From Actinomycetes bacterium (GTDB lineage Bacteria; Actinomycetota; Actinomycetes; Streptosporangiales; Streptosporangiaceae): DNA of 64,000 bases. Below the pieces are notes generated by a model that saw only the letters and a program-made list of their open reading frames with translations, was not told where the DNA came from and ran no database searches. Shown in pieces: positions 13,371-42,583 of the stretch. Location of the stretch: assembly GCA_021793235.1 (NCBI GenBank), contig JAJYTD010000004.1:124001-188000 (forward strand). The letters are read 5' to 3'. The position numbers and the translations under genes were made by a program. Each line of letters opens with the position of its first letter. Position 1 is the stretch's first letter.

Positions 13371-13410
13371 CACCGCCCCACGCAGCGACGCGAATGAAAA
13401 GGAGACCCAG

Positions 13411-14322: not shown

Positions 14323-14507
14323 CCCGCCTCAGGGCGTGTCCGCCGAAATGATTCGGTGGATACTCCCCAGCCCCCGCCGGATCCGGGCCGAAGGCCCCCG
14401 CAGGCCACAAGCCCGCCGGAAGGCCCGGACCCTCGCCCGCCATAACACCTGCCACCTGCAGAAAGTATGTTCCATCCCCCTTCGCATTCTTCTGAGAGGT
14501 TCCCGAA

Positions 14508-15485
14508 ATGAACCGGTTCCGCAGACTCTCCCTCATCGCCGGGGCCGCGAGCCTCGCTCTGGCCGCCTCCGCCTGCAGCTCCCAGGGAGGCGCGCAGGAA
14601 GATGAGGCCGACGGCGTTGACATGCCGGAGCTGACCATCGCGATGATCACCCACCAGGTTCCCGGAGACACCTTCTGGGACCTGGTCCGCGCCGGCGCCG
14701 AGGACGCCGCGGCCAAGAGCAACATCACCCTGGAGTACTCCTCCGACCCCGAGGCCGCCAAGCAGGCGACCCTCATCCAGACCGCGATCGACAAGGAGGT
14801 CGACGGCATCGCGATCACCCTGGCCAAGCCGGACGCGCTGCAAGAGGTGATCGACAAGGCCAACGACGCCGGCATTCCGGTGGTGGGCCTCAACGCGGGC
14901 ATCGAACACTGGGAGGAGGCCGGCCTCACGGAGTACTTCGGTGCCGATGAGACCCTCGCCGGCGAGGCGTTCGGCGAACGGCTGACCGAGGTGGGGGCGG
15001 AAAAGGCGCTGTGCGTGATCCACGAGCAGGGCCATGTCGCGCTGGAGACCCGCTGCAAGTCCCTCGCCGAGACCTTCGAGGGCGACTCGGAGACCCTCTA
15101 CGTCGACGGAGCCAGCATGCCCGACGTCAAGTCCGGCATCACCTCCAAACTCCAGGAGGACGACGAGATCGACTACGTCGCCACGCTGGGCGCCCCGTAT
15201 GCGATGTCCGCGATCGACGCGGTGAGCGAGGCCGAAAGCGACGCCAAGATCGCCACCTTCGACACCAACAAGGACCTTGTCGGCGCGGTCCAGGACGGCC
15301 ACATCGAATGGGCGATCGACCAGCAGCCCTACCTGCAGGGGTACCTGGCCGTGGACGGGCTGTGGCTCTACAACACCAACGGCAACGTCTCCGGCGGTGG
15401 TCAGCCGGTGCTGACCGGACCGAGCTTCATCGACGAGACCAACATCGACTCCGTGGCCGAGTACGCGGAGAAGGGGACCCGGTGA
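14508..15485 (+). CDS. Sugar ABC transporter substrate-binding lipoprotein
   Basis: 325 residues. The signal peptide ends in a lipobox (LAASAC, lipid-anchored Cys near residue 23), followed by a periplasmic-binding type 1 domain of the ribose/inositol class (VPGDTFWDLVRAGAEDAAAK, IDKEVDGIAITLAKPDALQEVIDKANDAGIPVVGLN, DQQPYLQGYLAVDGL). It is the first gene of a binding protein-permease-ATPase set with gaps of 7 bp each, following the iol genes by 185 bp. The likely ligand is myo-inositol or a related cyclitol, inferred only from context. The 185-bp gap holds no gene. Confidence 0.9.
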   Translation: MNRFRRLSLIAGAASLALAASACSSQGGAQEDEADGVDMPELTIAMITHQVPGDTFWDLVRAGAEDAAAKSNITLEYSSDPEAAKQATLIQTAIDKEVDGIAITLAKPDALQEVIDKANDAGIPVVGLNAGIEHWEEAGLTEYFGADETLAGEAFGERLTEVGAEKALCVIHEQGHVALETRCKSLAETFEGDSETLYVDGASMPDVKSGITSKLQEDDEIDYVATLGAPYAMSAIDAVSEAESDAKIATFDTNKDLVGAVQDGHIEWAIDQQPYLQGYLAVDGLWLYNTNGNVSGGGQPVLTGPSFIDETNIDSVAEYAEKGTR

Positions 15486-15492
15486 GTCATCG

Positions 15493-16560
15493 ATGAGCCA
15501 GACACTGACCGCGAAAGCACCCGCTTCGGGGGGCGGCGACTCCGAGAAGACCCTCAGAGTCGGTCGGCGCTCCCTGCTGTGGCGCTTCCTCGCCCGGCCA
15601 GAAGTCGGCTCGCTGATCGGCGCCGTCGTCGTGTTCGCTGTGTTCTTCACGGTGGCGGCGCCGTTCCGGCAGGCATCGTCGTTCTCGACGGTGCTGTACG
15701 CGAGCTCGACGATCGGCATCATGGCCGTGGCCGTGGCACTGCTGATGATCGGTGGGGAGTTCGACCTGTCCGCCGGTGTCGCGGTGATCACCTCGGCACT
15801 GACGGCCGGGATCGTCAGCTTCCAGCTCTCGCTCAACGTGTGGGCGGGCGCGGGGCTGGCCCTCGTGGTGTCACTGGCCATCGGATTCCTCAACGGGTGG
15901 ATCCTGATCCGCACGAAGCTGCCCAGCTTCCTGGTGACACTGTCGATGTTTCTGATGCTGCAGGGCCTCAACATCGCCGTGACCAAGATGATCACCGGCA
16001 GCGTGTCCACCGACAGCATCAACGACATGGACGGGTTCGACTCAGCGCGGGCGGTCTTCGCCTCCGACATTCCCATCGGGCCCGTCAACGTCCGGATCAC
16101 CGTGCTGTGGTGGCTGCTGTTCGCCGCCATCGCCACATGGGTGCTGGCCCGCACCCGGGTGGGCAACTGGATCTATGCCGTCGGGGGCAGCGCCGAAAGC
16201 GCCCGCGCCGTCGGAGTCCCGGTCGCCAAGGTCAAGATCGGCCTGTTCATGACCGTCGGGTTCTTCGCCTGGTTCAGCGGGATGCACCTGCTGTTCGCCT
16301 CCGGCGTCCAGCAGTCCGGTGAGGGCGTGGGCAACGAACTGCTCTACATCATGGCCGCGGTGGTCGGCGGCTGTCTGCTCACCGGCGGCTACGGCACCGT
16401 GGTCGGCGCGGTCATCGGTGCCTTCATCTACGGCATGACCAGGCAGGGCATCGTCTACGCCGGCTGGGACAACAACTGGATCATGTTCTTCGTCGGAGCG
16501 ATGCTGCTGCTGGCCGTCGTCGTCAACATGTGGGTCCGCACCCAGACGAGTAAGAGGTGA
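15493..16560 (+). CDS. Sugar ABC transporter permease (RbsC family)
   Basis: 355-residue integral membrane protein with about eight to ten hydrophobic segments, starting with [39 protein letters not shown] and the EAA-like [21 protein letters not shown] are typical of the ribose/xylose/inositol permease family. It forms the translocation channel with the ATPase encoded 7 bp downstream. Confidence 0.9.
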
Positions 16561-16567
16561 GCATGAG

Positions 16568-17461
16568 GTGAGCACGATGACGGATACCCCCGCGGCGGCC
16601 CCGGATAAGGACACCGGCCGACAGCCGGTACTGGAGCTCCGCGATGTCGGCAAGTCCTTCGGCAACATCCGGGCGCTGTCCGGGATCAACCTGAAGGTCG
16701 GCGCGGAAGAGGTCACCTGCATCCTCGGCGACAACGGAGCGGGCAAGTCCACCCTCATCAAGATCATCGCGGGTCTGTACCCGCCGACCGAGGGCGCGTA
16801 CCTGGTGGACGGCGGACCGGTGGCCTTCACGTCGCCGCGCGAGGCACTGGACCGCGGAATCGCCACCGTCTACCAGGACCTGGCGATGGTGCCGCTCATG
16901 CCGGTGTGGCGCAACTTCTTCCTCGGTTCGGAGATCCGTACCGGTTTCGGCCCCTTCCGCATGCTGGACGTGCGCAGGATGCGCCGTATCGCCGACGAGG
17001 AACTGAAGAAGATGGGCATCGACCTGCCCGACATCGACGCGCCCGTGGCCAACCTCTCCGGTGGTCAGCGGCAGGTCGTGGCGATCGCCCGCGCGGTCTA
17101 CTTCGGTGCCCGCGTACTGATCCTGGACGAGCCCACCGCCGCGCTCGGTGTCAAGCAGTCCGGGGTGGTGCTCAAGTACATCAAGGCCGCGCGGGAGGCC
17201 GGGCTCGGCGTCATCTTCATTACGCACAACCCGCACCACGCGTACATGGTCGGTGACCACTTCGTGGTGATCAAGCTCGGCCGGATGGAACTGGACGCGC
17301 CGCGCTCCGCGCTCTCCTTGGACGACCTCGCCCACCACATGGCCGGCGGAGCTGAGCTCGACGCTTTGCAGCACGAGCTCAAGCAGGACCAGCCCGCCCC
17401 GGCCGCTGCGCGGCAGGGCGCCGAGCCCGGTGCGGCTACCCCCGTTGCGCAAGAGGAGTGA
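16568..17461 (+). CDS. Sugar ABC transporter ATP-binding protein, single-domain
   Basis: 297 residues. Walker [10 protein letters not shown], signature LSGGQRQ, Walker B VLILDEPT and the switch His in FITHNPHH are present. RbsA-type ATPases usually contain two tandem ATPase domains; this one has a single domain, as in the FrcA/inositol-type importers, and would act as a homodimer. The last 40 residues are Ala/Pro/Gln-rich. GTG 16568 or ATG 16577 may be the start. Confidence 0.9.
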
Positions 17462-17471
17462 CGATGGCCGT

Positions 17472-17488
17472 CCGGCGCTCTGCGCCGG
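17472..17488 (+). terminator. Possible terminator hairpin after the inositol transporter operon
   Basis: CCGGCGC-TCT-GCGCCGG forms a 7-bp stem 10 bases after the ATPase stop. It is followed by A and G rather than T, so termination is uncertain. Confidence 0.35.
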
Positions 17489-17619
17489 AAAAGGGGGCCG
17501 AGGCCGCCGTTGGTCCGTACCTGTTCCGCGGCCTGCCTGCCGTGTGCCCGGAACCGGTCTGGAATTCACACCGAACCTCGTTCTAGTGTACGGCGGTGCG
17601 AGTCTGTAAAGTGCGGCGC

Positions 17620-18393
17620 ATGGAGCTGAATGGAGTTGCCGCCCTCGTATCCGGCGGCGCAAGCGGGCTGGGCGAGGCCACCGCCAAGGAACTGGCCTCC
17701 GCCGGTGCCACCGTTGTCATCGCCGACCTTGACGCCGAGCGCGGCGAAGCGCTGGCCAAGGAGGTCGGGGGCGTTTTCGCGGCCACCGACGTGTCGGACG
17801 AGAACCAGGTCGAGGCCGCCGTGCAGGCCGCCGTCGACACCGGGAAACCCCTGCGCGTGGCCGTGTCCTGCGCCGGTATCGGCTGGGCGACACGCACGGT
17901 CGACCGTGCCGGCCAACCGCACGACCTCGCCGGCTACAAGAAGGTCATCGACGTCAACCTGATCGGCACGTTCAACGTGGTGCGCCTGGCCGCCGCAGCG
18001 ATGGCCAAGACCGATCCGATCAACGAGGACGGCGAGCGCGGTGCGATCGTCAACACCGCCTCACTCGCCGGAATCGAAGGCCAGATCGGACAGATCGCCT
18101 ACTCGTCGTCCAAGGGCGGCATCATCGGCATGACCGTCCCTGCCGCGCGCGACCTCGCCGCGATCGGCGTGCGGGTGAACACCGTCGCTCCGGGCATCCT
18201 CGACACCCCTATTTACGGGCAGGGCCCCGAATCCGAGGCGTTCAAGGAGCGTCTGGCCGCGCCCGTCCCGTTCCCCAAGCGCCTGGGCACCGCCGCCGAG
18301 TTCGGCAGGCTGGTCCGCTCGCTGCTGGAGATCAGCTACATCAACGCCGAGGTCGTCCGCATCGACGGCGGCCTGCGCATGCAGCCGAAGTAG
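17620..18393 (+). CDS. Short-chain dehydrogenase (17-beta-HSD10/3-hydroxyacyl-CoA dehydrogenase type)
   Basis: 257-residue SDR. The nucleotide motif [16 protein letters not shown], the [10 protein letters not shown] segment and the catalytic NTASLAG...AYSSSKGG set are intact. The insertion [17 protein letters not shown] and the ending [14 protein letters not shown] are those of type-10 3-hydroxyacyl-CoA dehydrogenases, which oxidise short-chain 3-hydroxyacyl-CoA with NAD. It is followed after 10 bp by a crotonase, which supports a beta-oxidation step. ATG 17620 has no clear ribosome site; GTG 17596 is an alternative. Confidence 0.88.
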
Positions 18394-18403
18394 GGGGTCG
18401 GCC

Positions 18404-19162
18404 ATGGAGGTGCTCTACACGGCCGAGGACGGCGTCGCCGTCATCACGATCAACCGGCCCGAGGCCAAGAACGCCGTCAACGCCGCGGTGGCCGCGGGGA
18501 TCGCCGAAGCCCTGGACGACCTGGATGCGCGGGCCGATCTGACCGTCGGCATCATCACCGGCGCCGGCGGGACCTTCTGCGCGGGAATGGACCTGAAGGC
18601 CTTCATGCAGGGCGAGGTGCCCGTCGTCGAAGGGCGCGGGTTCGCCGGGTTCGCCCAGCGCCCGCCGCAGAAGCCGCTGATCGCGGCGGTGGAGGGCTAC
18701 GCCCTTGCGGGCGGCTTCGAAACCGTGCTGGCCTGCGACCTGGTGGTGGCCGCCGAGGATGCCAAGTTCGGCATCCCCGAGGTCAAGCGCGGCCTGGTCG
18801 CGGCCGGTGGTGGGCTGCTGCGGCTGCAGCACCGGATCCCGCGCAATATCGCCATGGAGTTCGCCCTCACCGGCGACTTCGTGGCGGCACCCCGGATGGC
18901 CGAGCTGGGGCTGGTCAACGAGGTCACCCCGAGCGGCGGAGCCCTTGAGGGTGCCAAGGCGCTGGCCGGGCGGGTGGCGGCCAACGCCCCGATGTCGGTC
19001 CGGGTCTCCAAGCAGGTCATCGCAGAATCCGACGACTGGTCCGCCGATGAGATGTGGGCCGAGCAGGACGAGCGCACCGGCCCGGTCTTCACCAGCCATG
19101 ACGCCATGGAGGGTGCCGCGGCCTTCGCTGAGAAGCGCCGGCCCGAGTGGAAGGGCCGATGA
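18404..19162 (+). CDS. Enoyl-CoA hydratase/isomerase family protein (crotonase)
   Basis: 252-residue crotonase-fold protein that hydrates trans-2-enoyl-CoA or carries out a related reaction. GAGGTFCAGMDLKAF provides the first oxyanion-hole segment and AVEGYALAGGFETVLACDLVVAAEDAKFGIPEV the second with the catalytic region. It lies 10 bp after the SDR gene, so the two would catalyse consecutive steps of fatty or branched acyl-CoA oxidation. A strong hairpin follows the gene. Confidence 0.88.
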   Translation: MEVLYTAEDGVAVITINRPEAKNAVNAAVAAGIAEALDDLDARADLTVGIITGAGGTFCAGMDLKAFMQGEVPVVEGRGFAGFAQRPPQKPLIAAVEGYALAGGFETVLACDLVVAAEDAKFGIPEVKRGLVAAGGGLLRLQHRIPRNIAMEFALTGDFVAAPRMAELGLVNEVTPSGGALEGAKALAGRVAANAPMSVRVSKQVIAESDDWSADEMWAEQDERTGPVFTSHDAMEGAAAFAEKRRPEWKGR

Positions 19163-19195
19163 AGGGCCGATAGGGTCCGTGCGGGCCCAGTGACG

Positions 19196-19224
19196 GGGCG
19201 CCCCCTCTGGCGAGGCGGGCGCCC
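19196..19224 (+). terminator. Rho-independent-type terminator of the SDR-crotonase pair
   Basis: GGGCGCCC at 19196 pairs with GGGCGCCC at 19217-19224, extended by CCTC/GAGG with one bulged C and a TGGC loop. TTT follows. It stands 33 bases after the crotonase stop. Confidence 0.65.
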
Positions 19225-19449
19225 TTTCCGTGCTGGGCGCCGTGCCGGGCGATGGGGCGCGGCGAGTGCGGCTCCTGGCGCGGCCCGGGCAGGGCCGAAG
19301 CGCTTGCTTTACCGGCTCCGGATACGCGGCCAATGAACGGTCAGCCGCGGGTGGGGAAAAGGAAAACGCTCCTTCCGCTCCTTCCGCGCCCGAGCGGTCA
19401 GCACATTCGCGCCCACGGAAGAAGATAACACCCGCCATACGTGCGCTTC

Positions 19450-31487: not shown

Positions 31488-32753
31488 ATGCGGGATACGG
31501 AAGGCGGTGCGGGGCCGGAGAGGGCCTCCGACCGGTTCGACCAGCGGCGGTTGCGGTTCGTGCGGTGGGTGGTGTTCAGCGCGTTCATCTTGATCGCCCT
31601 CCAGATCCCGTTCTTCGCGACCGTGGCGGTGGCCGCCTCGGCCGGCGAAGACGGTCCCGCGCTGTGGCGCACGATTACCGGCGCGGTGCTCAGCGTTCCG
31701 CTGATGCTGTGCACGATCCGCCTGCTCAGCCAGCGCATGGGCCGGGACCGCGTCTGCAGCGGGCCGGGATTCTGGGGGTCGTTCGCTCTTCTCCTGGCCA
31801 CAGTGGCGGCCTTGGACCTCGGTTTCTTGGCGATGTTCACCGCCGCGACATGGTGGTCGGTCGCCGCTGTCTCCGTACCCCGGCGGTGGATCACCGTGCC
31901 GACGGTGGTCCTGCTGGCCCTCCCGTGGATCCGCGCTGCCTTCTGGCTTCCCGAAACAAACTGGCTCCTGGTGCTGCTCGTCTGGTCGGTGGGGGCCGGC
32001 TGGACGCTGGTCGTCCTGCTCGGCAACCTCGGCACCCTGTGGATGTGGGACCTCACCAATGAGGCGATCCTCGGCAGGGAGGCCCGGGCACGGCTCGCGG
32101 TGAGCGAGGAGCGGCTGCGGTTCGCCCGCGACATGCACGACCTGCTCGGCCACAGCCTCTCCGCCATCGCGGTGCAGAGCGAACTCGCGGCGCGGCTGGC
32201 CGAGCGCGACCCGCGGCGCGCGGCGCAGGAGATGCGTTCGGCACAGCGGCTCGCGCGCGAGGCGCTGCGCGAGGTCCGGGCCGCGGTCAGCGGGTATCGG
32301 GAAGTGGACCTCGACGCCGAGACGGCCAACGTCCACCAGATCCTCACCGCCACCGGAGTACGCTGCTCGGTCACCGGACGGGCCGAGGACATCCCCGCCG
32401 AGCTGAGGGGCCTCGCCGCGTGGGTGATCCGCGAGGCCGGCACCAACGCCATCCGGCACAGTTCGGCCAAGCGCTGCGATATCGTCATCCGGCACGAGGG
32501 GGGCGCCGCCGTCATCGAGGTGTACAACGACGGTGCTTCCGGTTCGGGCGCGGACACCTCCATCGGCTACGGCAACGGTCTGTCCGGCCTGGCCGAGCGC
32601 GTCGCGGCCGCTCGCGGCACGCTGACGGCCAGCCGCAGCGGCGCGGACGGATTCCTGCTCAGGGCCGTCCTGCCGGTGGAGCCCGGCGCGGACCGCGAAC
32701 ACATTCCGGCGCGGGCGCCCAAAGAAGCGGAACGAGAGGAAACGCGCGCGTGA
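31488..32753 (+). CDS. Sensor histidine kinase, HisKA_3 (DesK/NarX-like) family
   Basis: 421 residues. Five hydrophobic segments occupy residues about 25-165. The dimerisation/phosphoacceptor motif is FARDMHDLLGHSLSAI, His near residue 216, and the ATPase domain has EAGTNAIRHS and GNGLSGLAERV. The sensor part has no extracellular domain, so it probably senses within the membrane, as DesK does. Its stop overlaps the response-regulator start by four bases (GTGA). Confidence 0.9.
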   Translation: MRDTEGGAGPERASDRFDQRRLRFVRWVVFSAFILIALQIPFFATVAVAASAGEDGPALWRTITGAVLSVPLMLCTIRLLSQRMGRDRVCSGPGFWGSFALLLATVAALDLGFLAMFTAATWWSVAAVSVPRRWITVPTVVLLALPWIRAAFWLPETNWLLVLLVWSVGAGWTLVVLLGNLGTLWMWDLTNEAILGREARARLAVSEERLRFARDMHDLLGHSLSAIAVQSELAARLAERDPRRAAQEMRSAQRLAREALREVRAAVSGYREVDLDAETANVHQILTATGVRCSVTGRAEDIPAELRGLAAWVIREAGTNAIRHSSAKRCDIVIRHEGGAAVIEVYNDGASGSGADTSIGYGNGLSGLAERVAAARGTLTASRSGADGFLLRAVLPVEPGADREHIPARAPKEAEREETRA

Positions 32754-33355
32754 TCCGCATCGTGCTCGCCGACAATGAGCATCTTGTCCGGGGGGCCATC
32801 GCCGCTCTGCTGGGGCTGGAGGACGACCTGGAGGTCGTCGCCGAAGTCGGCCGGGGTGACGAGGTGGCGGCGGTGGTCCGGGCGCACGGCGCCGACATCG
32901 CCGTGCTGGACATCGAGATGCCCGGCGCCACCGGCCTGGAGGTCGCCGGGCGGCTGCAAGAGAGCGCGCCGGAGTGCGGCGTGCTGATATTGACGAGCTT
33001 CGGCCGCCCCGGCTACCTGCGCCGCGCCCTGGACGCGGGTGCGCGCGGCTTCCTCGCCAAGGACTCTCCAGTAGAGGAGCTGGCCGGCGCGATCCGCAAG
33101 GTGCACGCCGGCGGCCGCTACATCGACACCGAACTCGCCGCGGCCGCGATGACATCGGGCGACAACCCGCTGACCATCCGCGAGACCGAGGTGCTCAAAG
33201 CCGCCGCCGACGGGTTCCAGGTCGCCGAGATCGCCCGGACCCTCCACCTCACCGAGGGGACGGTGCGCAACTACCTGTCGAGCGCCATCACCAAGACCGG
33301 TGCCACCAACCGCCTGGGCGCCATCCGCGCCGCCCAGAGCATGGGATGGTTGTGA
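32750..33355 (+). CDS. Response regulator, NarL/FixJ (DesR-like) family
   Basis: 201 residues. The receiver domain has the phosphoacceptor Asp54 (VLDIEMPG) and conserved Lys in AKDSP; the LuxR-type HTH is at about 140-200 (NPLTIRETEVLKAAADGFQVAEIARTL). It is translationally coupled to the kinase. The last 51 bases of the gene and the 64 after it recur at 40243-40354, marking the left edge of a candidate island. It probably binds the ATGACA/TGTCAT site at 29390. Confidence 0.9.
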   Translation: MIRIVLADNEHLVRGAIAALLGLEDDLEVVAEVGRGDEVAAVVRAHGADIAVLDIEMPGATGLEVAGRLQESAPECGVLILTSFGRPGYLRRALDAGARGFLAKDSPVEELAGAIRKVHAGGRYIDTELAAAAMTSGDNPLTIRETEVLKAAADGFQVAEIARTLHLTEGTVRNYLSSAITKTGATNRLGAIRAAQSMGWL

Positions 33356-33419
33356 GCATCATGGACGGAGAGAAGCTGCGCGGACTCGCCGAGGAGTTCG
33401 ACAACACGGACCAGAGTGA
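33305..33419. repeat. Left direct repeat of the island
   Basis: 115 bp that recur as 112 bp at 40243-40354. The first part codes for the last residues of the response regulator (TNRLGAIRAAQSMGWL) and differs from the right copy at a few mostly silent bases and by one missing codon; the last 70 bases, after the stop, are identical in both. Confidence 0.85.
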
Positions 33420-33498
33420 TTCGCTGAGCCTGCCCAACAAGTGGAGCCGGTGGAGGCCGCGTTGTCCCGGCTCGTTGGTGACAGGTGAAACATCCTGA
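33352..33498 (+). CDS. Small antitoxin-like frame, probably truncated
   Basis: 48 residues beginning VSIMDGEKLRGLAEEFDNTD, with a GTG that overlaps the stop of the response regulator. The opening resembles the N-terminus of BrnA/CopG-type ribbon-helix-helix antitoxins, in which LAExxDxTDxS precedes the DNA-binding part. After about 23 residues the resemblance ends, exactly where the repeat shared with 40354 ends, so the gene appears to have been cut by insertion or recombination. Family assignment is tentative. Confidence 0.35.
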   Translation: MSIMDGEKLRGLAEEFDNTDQSDSLSLPNKWSRWRPRCPGSLVTGETS

Positions 33499-33575
33499 TG
33501 GGTGCTTGAAACAGGTGAGGGCCTTCTGGTTCCGGTGTGGATTGCGAAGTCTGCACCGACGCTCAGGAGGCCCTC

Positions 33576-33725
33576 ATGATCCACCGTAACGCCCCGCTCA
33601 CCCCGACCGGACGTCTGCGCCTGGCCCGACGACCTCCTGGACTGGTGCAACTACCATCGACCCCACACCGGTATCGGAGGCCAGGTTCCAGCAGACCGCG
33701 TCACCAACCTCTCTGAACAACACAT
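33576..33725 (+). pseudogene. IS481-family transposase remnant with internal deletion
   Basis: AGGAGG precedes ATG 33576, and the first 17 codons (MIHRNAPLTPTGRLRLA) match the start of IS481-type transposases. They run straight into DDLLDWCNYHRPHTGIGG and VPADRVTNLSEQ, the C-terminus of the same family, in a shifted frame. Around 250 central residues including the DDE core are gone. The sequence from about 33480 is probably the left IS end; I could not define the terminal repeats. Confidence 0.65.
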
Positions 33726-33770
33726 CCTTTGCTCACCGTGGCATTGTGTCCACAGGTTAGAGGACGGAGC

Positions 33771-34328
33771 TTACGGTTCATGCGTTGCTGAATCCAGAAC
33801 CCATTCGTCGTCCAGGATCGAATGAACGACGGAATCGCGCCATGCGCCTCGGGTCCACAGATGCCGACGGATGCGCCCCTCCTCCACCATCCCGGCTCTG
33901 CGCATGATGTGTTCGGAAGCTTGGTTCTCCGGAGACCGAGCACCCCATATCCGCTTGAGCCCTAAGCTGTCGAAGCCAAGCCGGAGAAGGAGCCCAACAA
34001 GCCCGCTGCCCAGTCCTTGGCCCCACAAGTCAGGACGGAGTGCGAACCCGACCTGAGCGCTATGGGGGCGTTCGTCCACAGCCAGGCGACCAACGCCAAC
34101 AAGGCGATCCTCCTGTACGGCAGCGAGCATGTAGACGCTGCGGTCCTTCTGCTCAGCATCGGAGATCGCTGCCTCGATGAGAGCAACGCACTGTTCCCTG
34201 GTGCGTGGTGTGAATGACAGATGCGCGACGGCCTTCCGATCACCGTAGACCTTGACAAGGTCATCGACATCGGTTGGCCGCATCTCCCGAAGGGTGAGCC
34301 TGTCACTGGAGAGTTCGACTGGATACAT
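33771..34328 (-). CDS. GNAT family N-acetyltransferase (RimJ/RimL type)
   Basis: 185 residues. LSSDRLTLREMRPTDVDDL at the N-terminus, the acetyl-CoA-binding LRPDLWGQGLGSGLVGLLLRLGF and the NQASEHIMRRAGMVEEGRIRRH segment define the family, whose members acetylate protein N-termini, small amines or antibiotics. It is 10 bp downstream of the HTH-TPR gene on the same strand. Target unknown. Confidence 0.85.
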   Translation of the reverse strand: MYPVELSSDRLTLREMRPTDVDDLVKVYGDRKAVAHLSFTPRTREQCVALIEAAISDAEQKDRSVYMLAAVQEDRLVGVGRLAVDERPHSAQVGFALRPDLWGQGLGSGLVGLLLRLGFDSLGLKRIWGARSPENQASEHIMRRAGMVEEGRIRRHLWTRGAWRDSVVHSILDDEWVLDSATHEP

Positions 34329-34338
34329 GTCCGGCAGG

Positions 34339-35823
34339 TTAGCGCCCCGGGGTCAAGGCCGACGCTGGAGTCTGGCTGTACGCTTCGATCTCCTGACGCA
34401 GCCGGGAGGCGGCTTTGCTCCCCGTGTAGTCGGAGCTCCGCAAAGCGGCATGCACCCGCATGACGCTGTTCACCACTCCGGCCACCCTCCTCGTGGCGGG
34501 TAGACCCAGGACCGGGCCAAGGGCTTCTGCGGCACCTTCGACCTCGCCCAAGGACGCCCGCGCATAGCTAAGGTCGGCGCGTGCCCCGGCCTCGTCTTGG
34601 TAAGCCCAATCGTCGGACCCTGCGACAGCCGCGGCCTCATAGAGGCCAACAGCCTCCTGAGCGACCTGCTGAGCTTGCTCCTCGTCCCCGGGAATCCAGA
34701 TCTGCGTCTCAGCTCCGTAGTAGAGCTGGCGGCAGTGTGCGAAGCGCATGAGACCGCCAAACTCATCCAAGTCGTCCGTGCGCAGCCCTTCGCGTAGGGT
34801 CGTGGCCACCTGGAGGTCGTTGAGCGCACGATCTCCGTTGCCGAGCGATGCCCACGTGCGGGCACTCTGGGACATGAGCCAGATGGCGGCCGTACCGGTG
34901 CGCTCCGTCGCCAGGTCACGTGCCAATTCCGCGTACCTGGCGGCCTCCGTGGGCCATCCCGCCCAGTAGGCCATCAGGCTCTGCTGGGCACGGATTCGGA
35001 CTCGGAGTCCATCATGATCGGCGTTGTCCGCGCAGATAAACGCAGTACGGGCCTGCTTCATCGCTGCGTGTGGATCACCGAGGTCATGGCTTGCCTTCGC
35101 AAGCATCATGCTCAGGAGACCACTCAACAGGTACAGGTCCCTGGTCTGATTAGGGCGCTGACGTCCCTCCAGCAGCATGAACGCCACCTCCTGAGCCTCG
35201 ATGAGGTCTCCCAAGACTTCGTGGAGAGGAGCCTGGGGATAGGTCCTCGCGAGTCTGGATACCTCTTCGAAGAGTTCCTGAATGGTTTCCACCCCCACAT
35301 TCGTCCCTTCTGCCATCGCTCCGAACCTCATCGCACGCTTCGCGGCCATATCGATCTGCCTTTCCGGGGGTAGCGATCTACTCTCCCTGGTTATGGGGGG
35401 TTTTGGCTGCCCCAGGTCTGATCGGAGGGGTTCGATAGGAGCGAGCTGGCTTCCGACTCTTTTGAGGACGTTTTGCTCATGCTCGCTCAGCTTGTCGAAC
35501 CCCTCGGGGGTCAACAGCCTTCGGGGAGAAGTTCCGTACAACGCCGCCAAGGCCACGACCTGTGACGCTTGCGGTGCCCGTCCCCCTACCTCTGGCCAGA
35601 GTTCCATGCGGCTGAGCCCTGCCTGGTCCAGCGGAAGACCGGCTGCGGAAGCGCGGTACCGATCGGTTGCCTCGGCCTGGCTCCATCCGTGCAGGTGTCG
35701 ATAGGCCGCGAGGGGTGAGCATCCGCAGCGAATGCGGATCTCATCGGCGATTTCGTCATTCGCGCGACCTTGCTCGCGCATTCGGTCGCGCAGTTTCCGG
35801 AGCTGGGATTTCGTCCACTTCAT
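34339..35823 (-). CDS. Helix-turn-helix regulator with C-terminal TPR-like domain
   Basis: 494 residues. The N-terminal 95 residues hold an HTH-like region (IRCGCSPLAAYRHLHGWSQAEATDRYRASAA, GLSRMELWP, ALAALYGTSPRRLLTPE), here preceded by a basic helix (KSQLRKLRDRMREQGRANDEIADEIR). Residues about 190-480 are a helical repeat region (YLLSGLLSMMLAKASHDLGD, ALNDLQVATTLREGL, ARADLSYARASLGEVEGAAEALG). GAGGAGAG six bases upstream supports ATG 35823. It is divergent from the ATPase gene at 36084; this pairing is common in actinomycetes and suggests joint function, possibly small-molecule or peptide-sensed regulation. Confidence 0.78.
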   Translation of the reverse strand: MKWTKSQLRKLRDRMREQGRANDEIADEIRIRCGCSPLAAYRHLHGWSQAEATDRYRASAAGLPLDQAGLSRMELWPEVGGRAPQASQVVALAALYGTSPRRLLTPEGFDKLSEHEQNVLKRVGSQLAPIEPLRSDLGQPKPPITRESRSLPPERQIDMAAKRAMRFGAMAEGTNVGVETIQELFEEVSRLARTYPQAPLHEVLGDLIEAQEVAFMLLEGRQRPNQTRDLYLLSGLLSMMLAKASHDLGDPHAAMKQARTAFICADNADHDGLRVRIRAQQSLMAYWAGWPTEAARYAELARDLATERTGTAAIWLMSQSARTWASLGNGDRALNDLQVATTLREGLRTDDLDEFGGLMRFAHCRQLYYGAETQIWIPGDEEQAQQVAQEAVGLYEAAAVAGSDDWAYQDEAGARADLSYARASLGEVEGAAEALGPVLGLPATRRVAGVVNSVMRVHAALRSSDYTGSKAASRLRQEIEAYSQTPASALTPGR

Positions 35824-36083
35824 GCAGCTCTCCTCGGGGTTGTTATCCAGACTGCCCGAAACGACGAGAACCGCAACCAGGTCATCGCTAAGCGCACCCT
35901 CGGTTCGACATAAAAAGGCGCGCCGCATCAGCAAAACAGTAGCTCGAAGGTGGCGGCAGTGGCATAAAAACCATGCTTGCGCACCCAGTGATTTGTCGTC
36001 GCTCTCGGTGTTCGATCGGAGCCACAGGCAGGAGAGGAACAGTCCAGGGCTTACGCAGCACGACTTAGACGATTGAGGCGCGG

Positions 36084-36623
36084 ATGACGACCGCAACACG
36101 GATGAAGACTATGGACGACAAGAAACAGAGTGATCGGGCTAGTGGCAATACGTCACCGATGCTGCCGTGCCGGGGGCCTGGCTACTCTATGATGCCCGAG
36201 CTCGGAAAGGCCGGTCGCCGTCACGCCGCGAGATTCGGGCACACGCCATCACAGGTCCGTGCGGCTCGGCATTGGGTGCAGGTGATCACCGGGCTTCCCC
36301 GAGGCGAAGCCGACGTGCTCGAACTGGTGCTCTCAGAACTGGTGACTAATGCCCTGCGGCATACGGCCTCAGGGCAGGAAGGCCGTTTCACTGTCACGAT
36401 CGCTTACCTCGACAACGACGCGGTCCGCCTCGCTGTCGGGGACGACGGTCCTCGGCACGGTGATGAACCCACCGTTCCCCACGTGCGTCCGGTTGATCCC
36501 GGACTGGAACATGGACGCGGCCTTGCGCTGGTGGAGCGCCTCAGTCGGCACTGGGGGTTCTTGGGTATCCATGGCTCTCCGCTCACAGTGTGGGTGGTCG
36601 TCTCCCGAATGGCAATGCGGTGA
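36084..36623 (+). CDS. ATP-binding protein of the RsbW/anti-sigma kinase-like (HATPase_c) family
   Basis: 179 residues. The GHKL fold is seen in LELVLSELVTNALRHT (N box), VGDDGPRHGD (G1) and HGRGLALVERLSRHWGF (G2). Such single-domain ATPases act as anti-sigma kinases or as unknown regulators beside HTH genes in actinomycetes. GAGG lies six bases before the ATG. The next gene starts inside its stop codon (GTGA). Confidence 0.82.
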   Translation: MTTATRMKTMDDKKQSDRASGNTSPMLPCRGPGYSMMPELGKAGRRHAARFGHTPSQVRAARHWVQVITGLPRGEADVLELVLSELVTNALRHTASGQEGRFTVTIAYLDNDAVRLAVGDDGPRHGDEPTVPHVRPVDPGLEHGRGLALVERLSRHWGFLGIHGSPLTVWVVVSRMAMR

Positions 36624-36955
36624 GGGAGCGCGCAGACGATGGCCGGACCCCTGTTGATGATGAGGCACAGTACGCGATCGCGCACCGACTCCAGCAAGCT
36701 CACGGAACCCACTGGCTCGTGTTCTGGGGGCCTGGGAGCCGTGCCTACTGGGCTTTCTACCGAGGCAAAGAGCACGTACGACCTCAATCGGCCCCCACAC
36801 CAGCGTCCCTGCATTGGTCGATGCTCCACATCCAGCAACAGATGGGGCTGGGTGTGGGCGGTGCTCCGATGGGGCGGATCAGGGAAAGATCTCCGTTTTC
36901 CGGACTCCGGACGGACACTGCCGCTTCCCTCAGAAAGATATCGATTTCGTGCTGA
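36620..36955 (+). CDS. Small conserved protein of the HTH/ATPase locus
   Basis: 111 residues, function unknown. The part HRLQQAHGTHWLVFWGPGSR followed by AYWAFYRG is a Trp-rich core that I recall from small proteins next to HTH-ATPase pairs in streptomycetes. The start overlaps the ATPase stop by four bases, indicating translational coupling. No signal peptide or membrane helix is seen. The 230 bases after it hold no gene but should contain the promoter of 37187. Confidence 0.6.
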   Translation: MRERADDGRTPVDDEAQYAIAHRLQQAHGTHWLVFWGPGSRAYWAFYRGKEHVRPQSAPTPASLHWSMLHIQQQMGLGVGGAPMGRIRERSPFSGLRTDTAASLRKISISC

Positions 36956-37186
36956 CCGAAGCCCTGACGCTGGTCCGATGACCAACAACGGCGTGTGTCT
37001 CGGGCAGCTTCTCGGCTCCTTCTACTCCGGACGGGTGACCCCTGACCCCGGGACTCGTTCGGTAACGGTGGCATGGCACAGCAGTGCCTGTGTGGCGGTG
37101 CGTATTGGCATTCTCACCGCTCCGCGCATCGCACCCGTGCCATCTCCATCACCCCTTCGCCAGAGAAAATCAGAGAGGACCCCCAG

Positions 37187-37930
37187 ATGTCCGTCACGCT
37201 GAACCCGGTGACCCTGACCATTCCGGATCACCGTTTCGACCCCCGATGGAACCGCATCACCGGGATGTCGGTCGAAGGCGACACGATCACCATCGAGCCC
37301 GAGAAGTACTTCTTCCGACTGGAGTCCGATGCCTGGCGGGTGATCGAATGGGACAAGGTTGTCACTGAGCTTCTCCACGTCAACGAGACCTCCGAGTCGG
37401 CCATCGAGCAGATCGCTTTGGAGTACATCGCTCAGAATTCCCACATCACCAACGACCCCGCTGAGGTCCTGAGCATCGCTTGGCAGGTCTACAGCTACCT
37501 CTTCCGCGAGGAGCACCTGGCCTCGCTGGGCATCGACGGGATCACCGCAGACCATCTCCGGATGCTTGCGGAGGTCTCGACCTTCACCGCTCTGAACAAG
37601 GTCGAGGATGACGGTCAAATCAGCATCGTGGGTCCCACCTGGTTCTTCGCGGACACGGCGCAGGTCATCTATGACCTGGACGAACCCACAACCGAGTTGC
37701 TGGATGAGGTCTTCCACGGTGCTTGGTTCAACGAGTATCGGCGCATCGAGGGTGTCAAGGCCCACGCGGCCCTCGGCGGACGCCTGGTGCACGGGTGCCA
37801 GTCCGCCCCTGACAGGCGCGGCGGAGTCGTGGCGCCCTACGGCACGAACATGAAGCGGTTCCGAGATGAGCTGGACTCGTTCCGGGACACCTGGCTCACG
37901 ACGGTTCAGTCGTACGGCGAGCAGTCTTGA
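37187..37930 (+). CDS. Uncharacterised protein, first gene of the island operon
   Basis: 247 residues, acidic, without membrane segments or a domain I recognise. N-terminal strands (VTLTIPDHRFDPRWNRITGM, TITIEPEKYFFRLE) are followed by a helical middle (SESAIEQIALEYIAQ, LSIAWQVYSYLFREEHLASLGIDG) and a region with HGAWFNEYRRIEG and VHGCQ. AGAGAGGA lies seven bases before ATG 37187. A strong hairpin separates it from the APH-like gene, so it may be made in excess over the downstream products. Confidence 0.7.
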   Translation: MSVTLNPVTLTIPDHRFDPRWNRITGMSVEGDTITIEPEKYFFRLESDAWRVIEWDKVVTELLHVNETSESAIEQIALEYIAQNSHITNDPAEVLSIAWQVYSYLFREEHLASLGIDGITADHLRMLAEVSTFTALNKVEDDGQISIVGPTWFFADTAQVIYDLDEPTTELLDEVFHGAWFNEYRRIEGVKAHAALGGRLVHGCQSAPDRRGGVVAPYGTNMKRFRDELDSFRDTWLTTVQSYGEQS

Positions 37931-37946
37931 CGAACCACTCTCCCAA

Positions 37947-37975
37947 GGGGCTCTCCGGCGTCCCCGGAGAGCCCC
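37947..37975 (+). terminator. Strong intercistronic hairpin
   Basis: GGGGCTCTCCGG and its complement form a perfect 12-bp stem with a 5-base loop, 16 bases after the stop at 37930 and 22 before the next GTG. No T run follows, so it may be a terminator with read-through or an mRNA-stabilising hairpin. Confidence 0.6.
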
Positions 37976-37997
37976 GATCCGATACAAGGAGTCACAC

Positions 37998-38915
37998 GTG
38001 CGTTCAGCCGACACCGAAGGTATGCGCGGCGAACTACTCGGCTCATCCGGCATGAGTGCGGATTTCGTAGAGGCGAAGGCGCTGCATAGCTGGGAGCTCT
38101 CACATGTGGAGCGCTTGATCCTGACGGACGGGACCACCATCATCTTCAAGTGCGCCACTGAGCCCTTCACGCATGAACATGAGGCACTGATCGGAGCCTG
38201 GCAGGCGGGCGTGGGCGTTCCCCGATTGATCAAGTTCTTCCGGTCAGGGACCACCTTGGCGATGCTGATGGAGGACCTGGGTGAACCCGACCAGGAGGCT
38301 ACGGATGAGCACGGCATCACCGCAGCCGTGCAGCTTCACTCCGCAGCGATCCCGCCGTCTCTTCCCCAAGCCGATAACAAGTGGTTGGCCTCCCTCCCGC
38401 AAAGGGCGATGCGTACCCTAGACCTTCTGAATGAACAGGGCCGATGGTCTGATGCCGACGACATCAGGGAGGCACTGCGCGACATCGACCGCGCGGCTTC
38501 CCAGCGAGCAGAGGGCACGACGACCGCACCCTATGGATGGGTCCACTCGGAGTTTCACCCCGAGAGCCTGCTCGTGCGCGATGGGCGCGTCCGTCTCTAC
38601 GATCTCGCCCGTGCTTTCCACGGGCCGTGCCTTCTCGATCTCGCATCCTGGCACGGAACCGTCGAAGCACCTGACCCTGACCGAACCCGCGAGTTCCTGG
38701 AGTCCTACGTCGAGGCTGGAGGCAGCGCCAGCGCCCTCACACGCCGTGGCGGCCTGAAGCCGCAGGACTGGGCACTCGGATGGCACAGGGTGTGGGCTCT
38801 GGAATGGTTCCTCGCCCAGGCCCTGGTCTGGATCGGTGACGTCTCGGCCGATCACGCCTACATGAACGTGGTCCGTCGCCACACCCACGATGCGGCGTAT
38901 CTCCTCAACATCTGA
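37998..38915 (+). CDS. Aminoglycoside phosphotransferase (APH)-fold protein
   Basis: 305 residues of the APH/choline-kinase fold (LMEDLGEPD hinge, VQLHSAAIP, YGWVHSEFHPESLLVRDGRVRLYDLARAFHG split as catalytic and metal segments). The catalytic loop, normally HGDxHxxN, reads HSEFHPES, so Asp is Glu and Asn is Ser, and the second metal site reads YDLARA. Activity is therefore doubtful. AAGGAG lies six bases before GTG 37998. It precedes the HAD gene by 18 bp. Confidence 0.72.
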   Translation: MRSADTEGMRGELLGSSGMSADFVEAKALHSWELSHVERLILTDGTTIIFKCATEPFTHEHEALIGAWQAGVGVPRLIKFFRSGTTLAMLMEDLGEPDQEATDEHGITAAVQLHSAAIPPSLPQADNKWLASLPQRAMRTLDLLNEQGRWSDADDIREALRDIDRAASQRAEGTTTAPYGWVHSEFHPESLLVRDGRVRLYDLARAFHGPCLLDLASWHGTVEAPDPDRTREFLESYVEAGGSASALTRRGGLKPQDWALGWHRVWALEWFLAQALVWIGDVSADHAYMNVVRRHTHDAAYLLNI

Positions 38916-38933
38916 TCTCTGGAGGACGGTCCC

Positions 38934-39563
38934 ATGGCAGGGAGCCCCCCGTATCTGCTGATCGACGTCGACGGAGTTCTCAACCCGTTCCCCGGCCCAG
39001 GCGGTTCTGTACCACCGGAGTACCACCCACACCGAGTCGCCTTCAAGGGCCATCAGGACGTACCGGTCTGGCTCAACCCACACCACGGGGTCACGATCAA
39101 CGCCCTGAGCTCCACGGGCACCATCCGACCGCTCTGGGCAACGAGCTGGGGAGCCGAGGCGAACCTCCTGATCGCACCACACGTGAACATGCCCCAGATG
39201 CCACACATCGACTTGGGCACACCCGACATCTCAACGCCCCACCCTCACGGTTACCTCTGGAAGCGCGACCCGGTGGCCGATTGGCTCAAGGACGAAGCTG
39301 TCGCCTGGATCGACGACGACTTCGCACAGCCGGACTACGACTGGGCCATGGAGCGAACCTTGCTCGGTGTTCCCACGCTACTGATCCAGCCTGACCCATA
39401 TGCAGGTCTACAGCATCACCATATCGCGGCCGTTCGGCTCTGGGCTATTGCTGTCATGCGGGACTACGACACCTATGGGAGCCATCATGAGCGCCCCCTT
39501 GCAGACCCACGAGACCCAGTTGCTCCGGACATCCAGCGGAGTCCACGTTCCGATCGACCGTGA
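38934..39563 (+). CDS. HAD-family phosphatase, Swiss-Army-Knife RNA repair type
   Basis: 209 residues. The HAD motif I is LIDVDGVLN near the N-terminus, motif II lies in LWATSWG and motif IV is WIDDDF. This compact arrangement with PLWATSWGAEAN matches the HAD domain family found in Swiss Army Knife RNA repair proteins, where it acts as an end-processing phosphatase. As a stand-alone protein its substrate is open. GGAGG lies ten bases before the ATG. Its 3' end overlaps the following gene by 77 bases. Confidence 0.75.
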   Translation: MAGSPPYLLIDVDGVLNPFPGPGGSVPPEYHPHRVAFKGHQDVPVWLNPHHGVTINALSSTGTIRPLWATSWGAEANLLIAPHVNMPQMPHIDLGTPDISTPHPHGYLWKRDPVADWLKDEAVAWIDDDFAQPDYDWAMERTLLGVPTLLIQPDPYAGLQHHHIAAVRLWAIAVMRDYDTYGSHHERPLADPRDPVAPDIQRSPRSDRP

Positions 39564-39972
39564 CCTCGTTCCGCTGATCCTCCGCCTCTGGTCCCTCGGC
39601 TTGAATACCAGAGCCAGTTGTCAGAACTTCGGCGAATCGTTGGAGGACTCAGGCCCGGGAATACCTCCGGGCGATCCACGGTGGAGCGCCTTCTACGCCG
39701 ATCGAGTGTGGTTGAAGCTGTCACCGGCCCCCGCCGAACACCTGATTACCCTTCTTGGCGCGGATAAGGAACTCAGCATCGCCATGAACGAATGGGGCAG
39801 GGCAGCATCCTGGCTTTGCATGCGCCCTGTTGTACCGGACGTCTACGGCGGACCAGCGCGAACCCGGGACACTCACCTCTTCTTCCCACGAAAGCATCTC
39901 GATCATGTGGTGGAAGTGCTCGGCAGGTCGGAATCGGTTCCGTTCCAGCCAGATTCGGTGAGAACCGGGTGA
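39487..39972 (+). CDS. Uncharacterised small protein with an NTRASCQ motif
   Basis: 161 residues. The segment VPLILRLWSLGLNTRASCQ near residues 26-44 is a pattern met in small phage- and island-borne proteins of unknown function, often with Cys and Gln at the same place. The rest has no recognisable domain. GGGAG six bases before ATG 39487 supports the start, which lies inside the HAD gene in another frame. It is last in the operon; a terminator follows. Confidence 0.6.
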   Translation: MSAPLQTHETQLLRTSSGVHVPIDRDLVPLILRLWSLGLNTRASCQNFGESLEDSGPGIPPGDPRWSAFYADRVWLKLSPAPAEHLITLLGADKELSIAMNEWGRAASWLCMRPVVPDVYGGPARTRDTHLFFPRKHLDHVVEVLGRSESVPFQPDSVRTG

Positions 39973-40029
39973 GTTCCTCCCCGCCCTCAAGTGAGCAAGG
40001 ATTCATCTCCGCAGTAGTCACAGATAATG

Positions 40030-40062
40030 GGGCCTCGCTCGGTGAACCGGGTGAGGCCCTTT
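40030..40062 (+). terminator. Rho-independent terminator of the island operon
   Basis: GGGCCTC/GAGGCCC stem with an inner CGGT/ACCG stem, then TTT. It lies 58 bases after the stop at 39972. Confidence 0.7.
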
Positions 40063-40242
40063 GTGCCGCAGACTGAGCACGGCTCCGGACGCCGACGGAC
40101 CCCAGCAGTGGCACCAGGGCGTGCCGCGCGGTGCGGGTGGCCCCCAGCGTGGCTCTGGCCGACCCACGGTGCCTAGCGTTGATGGGAGTTTTCTGAACCT
40201 CCTGCGGACATGGCGAAGGGCGCCAAGGATTGGTGTGTGACG

Positions 40243-40354
40243 ACCAACCTGGGCGCCATTCGCACCGCCCAGAGCATGGGGTGGTTGTGAGCATCATGGA
40301 CGGAGAGAAGCTGCGCGGACTCGCCGAGGAGTTCGACAACACGGACCAGAGTGA
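40243..40354. repeat. Right direct repeat of the island
   Basis: 112-bp copy of 33305-33419. Its first part encodes TNLGAIRTAQSMGWL and a stop, a response-regulator tail lacking one codon, and its last 70 bases repeat the antitoxin-like start exactly. Upstream of it no other part of a response regulator is seen. The 433-bp gap 39973-40405 otherwise holds only the terminator. Confidence 0.85.
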
Positions 40355-40405: not shown

Positions 40406-42583
40406 TCAAAGGAACCGCAGGACCAGCATTGCCGTGTCGTCGGTGTGGCCGCCGGGGGCGAACTCCTCCAGGTCGCGGTCGAGGCGGACGATGACGGCCT
40501 GGGCGGTGAGGCCCGAACAGTGGGAGAAGATGTCCATCAGGCCTTCGTCGCCGAGCATGTCGGCATTGTGGCGGCGCTCGGTCACACCGTCGGTCACCGC
40601 GAGGAGTACGTCGCCGGAGGCGGCCTCGATGGTCTCGGTGTAGAAGTCGACGTCCTCGAACGCGCCCAGCAGCGGCTGTGAGGTACCCAGGGATGCCACC
40701 TCGCCTTTCCGGTTGAGCTTCAGCGGGAGCGGGTGGCCCGCCGAGACCAGGCGGATGCGCATGCCCTCACCCGGCTCGCCCATCGGCGTCATCTCGCCGT
40801 AGAGCATGGTGAGGAACCGGGTCGTGGTGTTCTCGTCCAGAATGGCCATGTTCAGCCGACGCATGATGTGGGCCGGCGAGAACCCCTCGCGAGCCAGCGC
40901 GCGGAGAGTGTGCCGGGCCAGGCCGGTGACGGCGGCCGCGGTCGGTCCGGTGCCGCAGACGTCGCCGATCGCGAAGCACCAGCGGCCATCGGCGGCGAAG
41001 ATGTCGTAGAAGTCGCCGCCCACCACGGTGCGCTCGTCAGCGGAACGGTAGAACACGGCGTGGTCGACACCGGGAATGTCCGGTTCCTTCTCCTTGGCGG
41101 GGAGCAGGCTGCGTTGGAGGGCCTCGCTCATGGAGGTCTGCCCCTCGTAGAGCCGTGCGTTCTCCATCGCCGACGACACCCGGCTGGCCAGGTCGTCGAC
41201 AACGTCCACGTCCTCGCGGGGGAAGTCCTCCTCCGTGTTCTTGCCCAGGGTCATCCGGCCGAGCGTCCGGCCGTGCGCGATCAGCGGAATGCTGATCGCG
41301 GGGCTCTCCGCCAGCTCCAGTGTCAGCTCGTCGGTCAGCCCCGCGGCGGTGAGCATGTCCTTGTCCCACAGCGGGCCCGGTACACGCTGCTCCGGGGGCG
41401 GCATTTCGGTGAGCAGGGCGCGCAGCACGTCGTTGTAGTTCTCGTTGCTGTGCATGGTGTGCACCAGCCGCGGAGTCCCCAGATCGTTGACGGTGTGCAC
41501 GGCGCACCAGGCGCCCAGCCGCGACGTGATCAACTGCGCGGCCAGCGCCGCCGTCTTCTGCTCGTCCAGCGTCCCGGTGAGCAGGTCGCTGGCCTCGGCG
41601 AGGAAGCTCAGGCTGGCCCGCCGGGCCAGCTCCACCTCGGCCAGCCGCGCGCGTTCCATGGGCAGCGCGATGCGGTCGGCCCCCTCCTGCAGCCGGCGGG
41701 CCGCGGTGTCCCCGAAGTGCCGGATGCGCCGTGACGCGACACCGATCAGGCCGGTGACCCGGCCTTCGACGATGAGCGGAGCGGTGACCAGGGAGCGCAT
41801 GCCCGCTTTGGAGAGCCGGCCGCTGTGCGCCCGAGCGATCATCAGGTCATCGTTGATGACCGCGCCGGGGGCCGGCGCGACCGAGGGGAATGTCTCTTCG
41901 GTGCGGCTGCGGAACGAGCGCCAGGGGCCGCTGGTCAGTCCGGTGGCGGCGCGGAGTTCCCACTCGGTCTCATCGGTGGTGGCCAGCGCGATGTAGGCGG
42001 CGTCGCCGCCCAGGGCCGACCGGGCGTACTCGACGGTGCGGTCCAGCAATTCCGGCAGGGAGAGCCGAGCGGCCAGAGCGGCGTCCAGCGCGGCCCACGG
42101 GTTGGGCTTCACCGTCCGGCGGCGCGGCGGACGGGTCGGCAGCGGGGGCGCGAGTTCGGTCCCGGTCGGCTCGTCCTGGATCCGGAACCAGACGGCTTTG
42201 TCGTCCTTGCTGTAGCTGACACCCCACGTTGTGGCGAGTGCACCGGCGAGGGCGAGGCCCAGTCCGCCGTTGCGTCCGTTGTCAGTGGAGGGAGAGGTGT
42301 CCACGGACAAGGGGCCCGCTTTGGGAACGGCGCGTTCGGGGACACGGTCGGCCACCACCACCTCGACCGCGTCCGGCAGGCGCCGGATGGTCAGCTCCAG
42401 CATGCTCTCCGCGTGGATGACCGCGTTCGTCACCAGTTCGCTGGCGAGCAGGATGATGTCATCGGTCGAATGCTCCACACCCCAGTCCCGCAGCGTCTCA
42501 AGGACGAACAGTCGGGCATCGCCCGCTGTCTCGGGAGCGGGTGAGAACTCGCGGTGGGCGACCTTTATCGCATCATGTGGCAT
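40406..42583 (-). CDS. Multidomain SpoIIE-type serine phosphatase with N-terminal ATPase and GAF domains
   Basis: 725 residues. Order: RsbW-like HATPase (about 5-140; ILLASELVTNAVIHAES, GGLGLALAGALA), two GAF-like regions (about 165-320 and 330-490), and a PP2C/SpoIIE phosphatase (about 505-725) with GGDFYDIF, GDVCGTGPTAA and GGHTDDTAML metal motifs intact. One protein thus carries both a kinase-like and a phosphatase module of the partner-switching kind, which act on STAS anti-sigma antagonists such as that at 50633. Soluble. It is divergent from the hybrid kinase at 42953. Confidence 0.88.
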   Translation of the reverse strand: MPHDAIKVAHREFSPAPETAGDARLFVLETLRDWGVEHSTDDIILLASELVTNAVIHAESMLELTIRRLPDAVEVVVADRVPERAVPKAGPLSVDTSPSTDNGRNGGLGLALAGALATTWGVSYSKDDKAVWFRIQDEPTGTELAPPLPTRPPRRRTVKPNPWAALDAALAARLSLPELLDRTVEYARSALGGDAAYIALATTDETEWELRAATGLTSGPWRSFRSRTEETFPSVAPAPGAVINDDLMIARAHSGRLSKAGMRSLVTAPLIVEGRVTGLIGVASRRIRHFGDTAARRLQEGADRIALPMERARLAEVELARRASLSFLAEASDLLTGTLDEQKTAALAAQLITSRLGAWCAVHTVNDLGTPRLVHTMHSNENYNDVLRALLTEMPPPEQRVPGPLWDKDMLTAAGLTDELTLELAESPAISIPLIAHGRTLGRMTLGKNTEEDFPREDVDVVDDLASRVSSAMENARLYEGQTSMSEALQRSLLPAKEKEPDIPGVDHAVFYRSADERTVVGGDFYDIFAADGRWCFAIGDVCGTGPTAAAVTGLARHTLRALAREGFSPAHIMRRLNMAILDENTTTRFLTMLYGEMTPMGEPGEGMRIRLVSAGHPLPLKLNRKGEVASLGTSQPLLGAFEDVDFYTETIEAASGDVLLAVTDGVTERRHNADMLGDEGLMDIFSHCSGLTAQAVIVRLDRDLEEFAPGGHTDDTAMLVLRFL

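Follow-up and report, generated by a model that had tools for sequence, protein, structure and literature searches.

A probably acquired gene block between desR- and rsbU-like genes of a Nocardiopsis-like bacterium, flanked by direct repeats that may be a scar of illegitimate joining

Background

Capture of foreign DNA by homology-facilitated illegitimate recombination, or by Ku-dependent joining, is known from experiments. Such events share with the locus described here foreign DNA at a microhomology, a short target duplication and the presence of a Ku gene, the difference being that our case is known from its scar alone. Regulatory sets made of an XRE regulator and an RsbW-like ATPase (WhiJ/NsdA-type) occur in actinobacteria; our locus resembles them in that the regulator gene is divergent from a HATPase_c_2 gene, but here this pair is linked to an unnamed four-gene operon encoding an uncharacterised protein (gUNK), a phosphotransferase-like protein, a HAD-like protein and a second uncharacterised protein. 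Decayed AICEs with cargo and two repeats have also been described, with repeats of up to 94 nt and with protein genes among their sites (PMC9513070, PMC3218068), and 93-nt repeats flank one actinomycete ICE (PMC9513070). Our locus is like a defective AICE or CIME in having cargo between two direct repeats, no integrase and an intact target gene, but it differs from one in its non-tRNA site, in the fusion of IS982 to desR by microhomology at its right border, and in that no int, rep or tra remnant is recognised in it.

A foreign block in the desR-rsbU gap

The window, that is, the whole 64,000-nt stretch of DNA that was analysed, comes from a Nocardiopsis-like bacterium in which a foreign block of ~6.8 kb lies between two chromosomal neighbour genes (Table 1). 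In the closest relatives (Nocardiopsis, Streptomonospora and Marinactinospora), desR is followed by the convergent rsbU-like gene and then by the gene of a large HAMP-repeat kinase, and the gap between desR and rsbU is no longer than 300 bp in 42 of the 60 related loci, a set in which some genomes are present twice. The window keeps both neighbours, 7 kb apart, and removal of the block together with a repeat copy would leave a gap of about 115 bp. Since the gap is short in most of these related loci, the block is an insertion at this point. The empty site would consist of desR, the 64 bp that follow its stop codon, AGTAGTGGG... and rsbU, with one repeat copy. The preliminary description had proposed to look for such an empty site in related genomes. 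The related loci do carry desR and rsbU without the block, but a site with a single repeat copy was not found, the 64 bp being matchless in 343 family genomes and the genus being represented by the window's own genome alone.

The block has a GC content of 62.6%, against 70.9% in the left flank and 67.4% in the right flank, and the GC3 of its genes is 0.65-0.84, against 0.89-0.92 in desK, desR, rsbU, the ABC gene and the HAMP kinase gene. GC content and codon usage (as GC3), which had been suggested as a check along the interval, thus both set the block apart from its flanks. The main reading frames of the block are open and unbroken. An accessory block at a non-tRNA site, as originally proposed, is supported by this composition, by the empty layout in relatives and by the recurrence of the cassette elsewhere, and we regard the block as probably acquired horizontally.

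Other genes lie in the desR-rsbU gap in some relatives. In N. potens (locus L035, 10001-14300), an entire second desKR pair and an ABC transporter are found between desR and rsbU, and locus L037 also has a second desR there. The gap of Nocardiopsaceae YIM 96095 (locus L068, 10607-16848) contains genes resembling a Mrp-type antiporter operon, named by eye, so the gap appears to be a recurrent place for extra genes. HicAB-like genes, also named by eye, are located in the gap at 5581-6123 of L085 and at 6347-6798 of L075. A further RHH-like ORF of L085 (MEPVDIVRLSEGFDTCDQSA) resembles by eye a 20-codon frame in the window's repeat.

Table 1. Positions in the window of the block, its borders and its neighbours
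Feature	Position	Strand	Evidence and remarks
desR-like LuxR-family response regulator gene	32750..33355	+	Pfam Response_reg and GerE; 76-89% identity to Nocardiopsaceae orthologues
Left direct repeat copy	33313..33419	+	desR tail (43 bp) and 64 bp downstream; 104/107 versus right copy
38-bp segment between left repeat and IS481 end	33420..33457	.	No IS481 match left of ~33458-33461
IS481 internal-deletion derivative	33458..33724	+	Its ends match those of an IS481 on a Streptomyces plasmid at 84% and 83%
GNAT acetyltransferase gene (185 aa)	33771..34328	-	PF13302, E 6e-24
NsdA-family-like TPR regulator gene (494 aa, XRE-like N-terminus)	34339..35823	-	NF053720, E 2e-18, below curated cut-off; start 35823
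RsbW-like HATPase gene (anti-sigma kinase type)	36084..36623	+	PF13581, E 1e-15
Small Trp-rich protein gene (HWLVFWGPGSRAYWAFYRG)	36590..36955	+	Adjoins the ATPase gene in Streptomonospora locus L174 too; 61% over 51 aa
gUNK, uncharacterised (247 aa)	37187..37930	+	Homologues 47-67% identical
Phosphotransferase-like protein gene (297 aa)	38022..38915	+	Same-position gene on a Streptomycetaceae plasmid annotated as aminoglycoside phosphotransferase family
HAD-like protein gene (209 aa)	38934..39563	+	PF18143, E 9e-6, just under cut-off
Uncharacterised protein gene (165 aa), last of operon	39475..39972	+	Homologues in the same order in L170 and L174
Hairpin, candidate operon terminator	40029..40062	+	14-bp stem, -29 kcal/mol, z -4.3
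Truncated 5' end of IS982-family element	~40174..40257	+	80-91% to multicopy elements in own and related genomes
Right direct repeat copy	40248..40354	+	104/107 versus left copy; two copies in genome
rsbU-like GAF/SpoIIE phosphatase gene	40406..42583	-	Pfam SpoIIE, GAF and HATPase_c_2; native convergent neighbour of desR

The direct repeats and their borders

A repeat search of the window paired 33300-33419 with 40235-40354 at 93% identity, and a position-by-position comparison gave a sharp core of 107 bp (33313-33419 versus 40248-40354), 104 of them identical, with an E-value of ~4e-46; outward of 33313 and 40248, on the upstream side, no significant homology was found between the copies. The direct repeats that had been described around the block at a response-regulator gene are therefore real. 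The core is made up of the final 43 bp of desR and the 64 bp 3' of its stop codon, and desR is intact in the window, so that the left repeat opens with its tail. All three mismatches between the copies (33325, 33329 and 33346) fall in the 43-bp desR tail, and the 64 bp past the stop codon match at 64 of 64 positions. No third copy was found in the 4.8-Mb genome, and the core has no meaningful match in phages, plasmids, viral contigs or the 343 family genomes; the 64-bp stretch by itself likewise has no counterpart among the latter. The window harbors no tRNA or tmRNA, which bears out the non-tRNA nature of the site, and no RNA family was found across it. Through RecA recombination between the 107-bp repeats, the block could still be lost at low frequency.

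The preliminary description had seen an antitoxin-like start downstream of desR, which is not established by our results: a 20-codon frame is present in both copies with no full gene, its DNA is absent from the 343 family genomes, and short peptide searches found nothing elsewhere. The antitoxin reading has in its favor a by-eye likeness only, to an RHH-like ORF in the desR-rsbU gap of N. chromatogenes, and we did not retain it.

The DNA that adjoins the right repeat on its left has multicopy matches, often at contig ends, in the window's own genome and in 19 related genomes. The alignment of these copies gives the 5' end of the element as CTAGATCGTTGATGGG...GTGACGACCAACCTGGACGCCCTT, and annotated relatives place the encoded transposase start VTTNLDALLTALYVHLDDH in the IS982 family. 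This fragment is absent from the preliminary description. IS982 is fused in frame to the desR tail (VTTNL, then GAIRTAQSMGWL), and at the switch point the IS982 sequence CCTGGaCGCC and the desR sequence CCTGGgCGCC agree in 9 of 10 bp, a microhomology. As the IS982 start runs into the desR tail, the right repeat begins where the truncated IS982 joined desR. Of the three mismatches between the repeats, two (33325 C/T and 33329 G/A) carry the base of most IS982 copies, a coincidence that could be due to chance (~1 in 9). The multicopy matches at contig ends had raised the idea of an rRNA leader in the right arm, which we rejected, since Rfam was negative and the start of an IS982 transposase is encoded there.

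At the left border (33419/33420), no partner sequence was found, nor any microhomology comparable to that of the right border. The IS481 relic noted previously, which lies on this side of the block, is confirmed as a 267-bp, MITE-like form with an internal deletion, in which both terminal inverted repeats are kept and ~820 bp are lost.

Possible routes of entry

We favor, with a probability of roughly 0.6, an entry of the block by illegitimate recombination rather than by a site-specific integrase, the repeat being the scar of a microhomology-assisted joining. One end of the incoming DNA would have lain within the truncated IS982, whose transposase start (ACCAACCTGGaCGCC) would have been joined to the desR tail (CCTGGgCGCC) over ~10 bp of microhomology; the other end would have been joined 107 bp further downstream, or may already have been continuous through desR-homologous donor DNA. 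A target stretch of ~107 bp would thereby have been duplicated, with desR left intact. The fusion of IS982 to desR at a 9/10 microhomology speaks for illegitimate joining rather than a clean att site of an integrase, and since the genome has a Ku gene, end joining is available. We infer a single event, with a join mediated by microhomology, either through end joining or through homology-facilitated illegitimate recombination. On the other hand, the left border and the unexplained 38 bp at 33420-33457 count against this explanation. Homologous exchange, one of the routes proposed earlier, could explain one end, where desR would be the anchor, but leaves the IS982 join unaccounted for. If illegitimate joining is the correct reading, an att-like repeat pair can be a joining scar at an IS fragment, which calls for caution in automatic island calling.

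Alternatively, the end of desR might have been duplicated in tandem recently, the island inserted between the two copies, and a deletion then have run from inside IS982 into the second desR, and the final structure would look identical. The locus does duplicate, as the second desR in the gap of the close relatives L035 and L037 attests; however, the duplicate known in these relatives is old, with ~76% identity to the window's desR, against 88%, whereas here the 64 bp downstream are identical. This course would also need three events instead of one, and we consider it unlikely. The duplication would have to be recent in any case, given the identity of these 64 bp and the agreement of the right tail with the desR of the window at 40 of 43 positions, against 36 of 43 at most with those of relatives. 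For these reasons we rejected an ancient desKR duplication as the source of the right copy, and the collapse of an ancient tandem duplication, which had been suggested before, is likewise disfavored.

A decayed integrative element (an AICE or ICE remnant, CIME-like) would explain the repeats as attL and attR, made by a tyrosine integrase at the 3' end of desR, with the integrase later lost. The repeat length and the restored target gene fit such an element, 93-nt repeats being known to flank actinomycete integrative elements (PMC9513070), and a serine-recombinase fragment and ParB are encoded near the cassette in the Streptomonospora locus. However, an att site does not predict an IS982 truncated exactly at the core and fused to desR by microhomology, and the same fusion, which forms the right repeat's inner border, disfavors the entry by an outside recombinase that had been considered previously. 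No integrase was found in the island ORFs by Pfam and PHROG searches, in the block by tblastn with the genome's own integrases, or elsewhere in the window, in agreement with the earlier statement that the block contains none, and no rep or traB/FtsK-like transfer gene of the AICE type was recognised among the block's proteins. Likewise, with this genome's integrases as the only queries, no integrase was found within the retrieved sequence around desR in 78 related loci, and searches of family genomes, phages, plasmids and viral contigs gave no copy of the putative att core. All in all, an integrative element appears quite improbable to us. Vertical inheritance of the locus with chance repeats has nothing in its favor beyond uneven sampling of taxa, with a single genome from the genus, and is already contradicted by the repeat E-value of 4e-46, the foreign composition and the relatives that lack the block at this site, so it can hardly be true.

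A recurring gene cassette

The genes of the block, from the GNAT gene to that of the 165-aa protein (Table 1), make up a coherent cassette. The NsdA-like regulator scores 66.9 bits against the NF053720 cut-off of 75, and is thus a relative rather than a member of that family. Together with the anti-sigma-type ATPase, it suggests, from the protein families involved, that the operon may be under the control of a developmental or stress signal. Searches of Pfam, NCBIfam, PHROGs and PADLOC assigned the gUNK protein to no family, a profile search against PDB returned chance-level matches only, and its single-sequence fold is unusable (pLDDT 38). The phosphotransferase-like protein has no Pfam match. 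For the terminator noted in the preliminary description, a strong stem is confirmed, but it is followed by a short T run only and is absent from the terminator scan list.

L170 shares the complete order gUNK, phosphotransferase, HAD and uncharacterised protein, and L171, L172, L173, L174 and L176 share parts of it, at unrelated places. In Marinactinospora thermotolerans (L179), a GNAT gene, a regulator fragment, a broken gUNK gene, a phosphotransferase gene and a HAD fragment follow one another, which is a decayed copy of the cassette. We found gUNK in 13 of the 199 genomes searched, the window's own included, and none in phages or viral contigs. The gene is also located on two Streptomyces-type plasmids, with the phosphotransferase gene alongside it on one of them, and in Streptomonospora (L174) a gene with a ParB domain and a serine-recombinase zinc ribbon are found close to the cassette unit. 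The cassette might tentatively be viewed as an undescribed, widely travelling functional system that takes any available route to move among plasmids, prophage- or ICE-like regions and chromosomes, although we hold this to be rather doubtful. What emerges from the comparison is an unnamed cassette of actinobacterial genes that recurs and has at its center a protein family without annotation. In L172, a CRISPR-like repeat array and Cas-like genes (12800-19400) adjoin the gUNK homologue.
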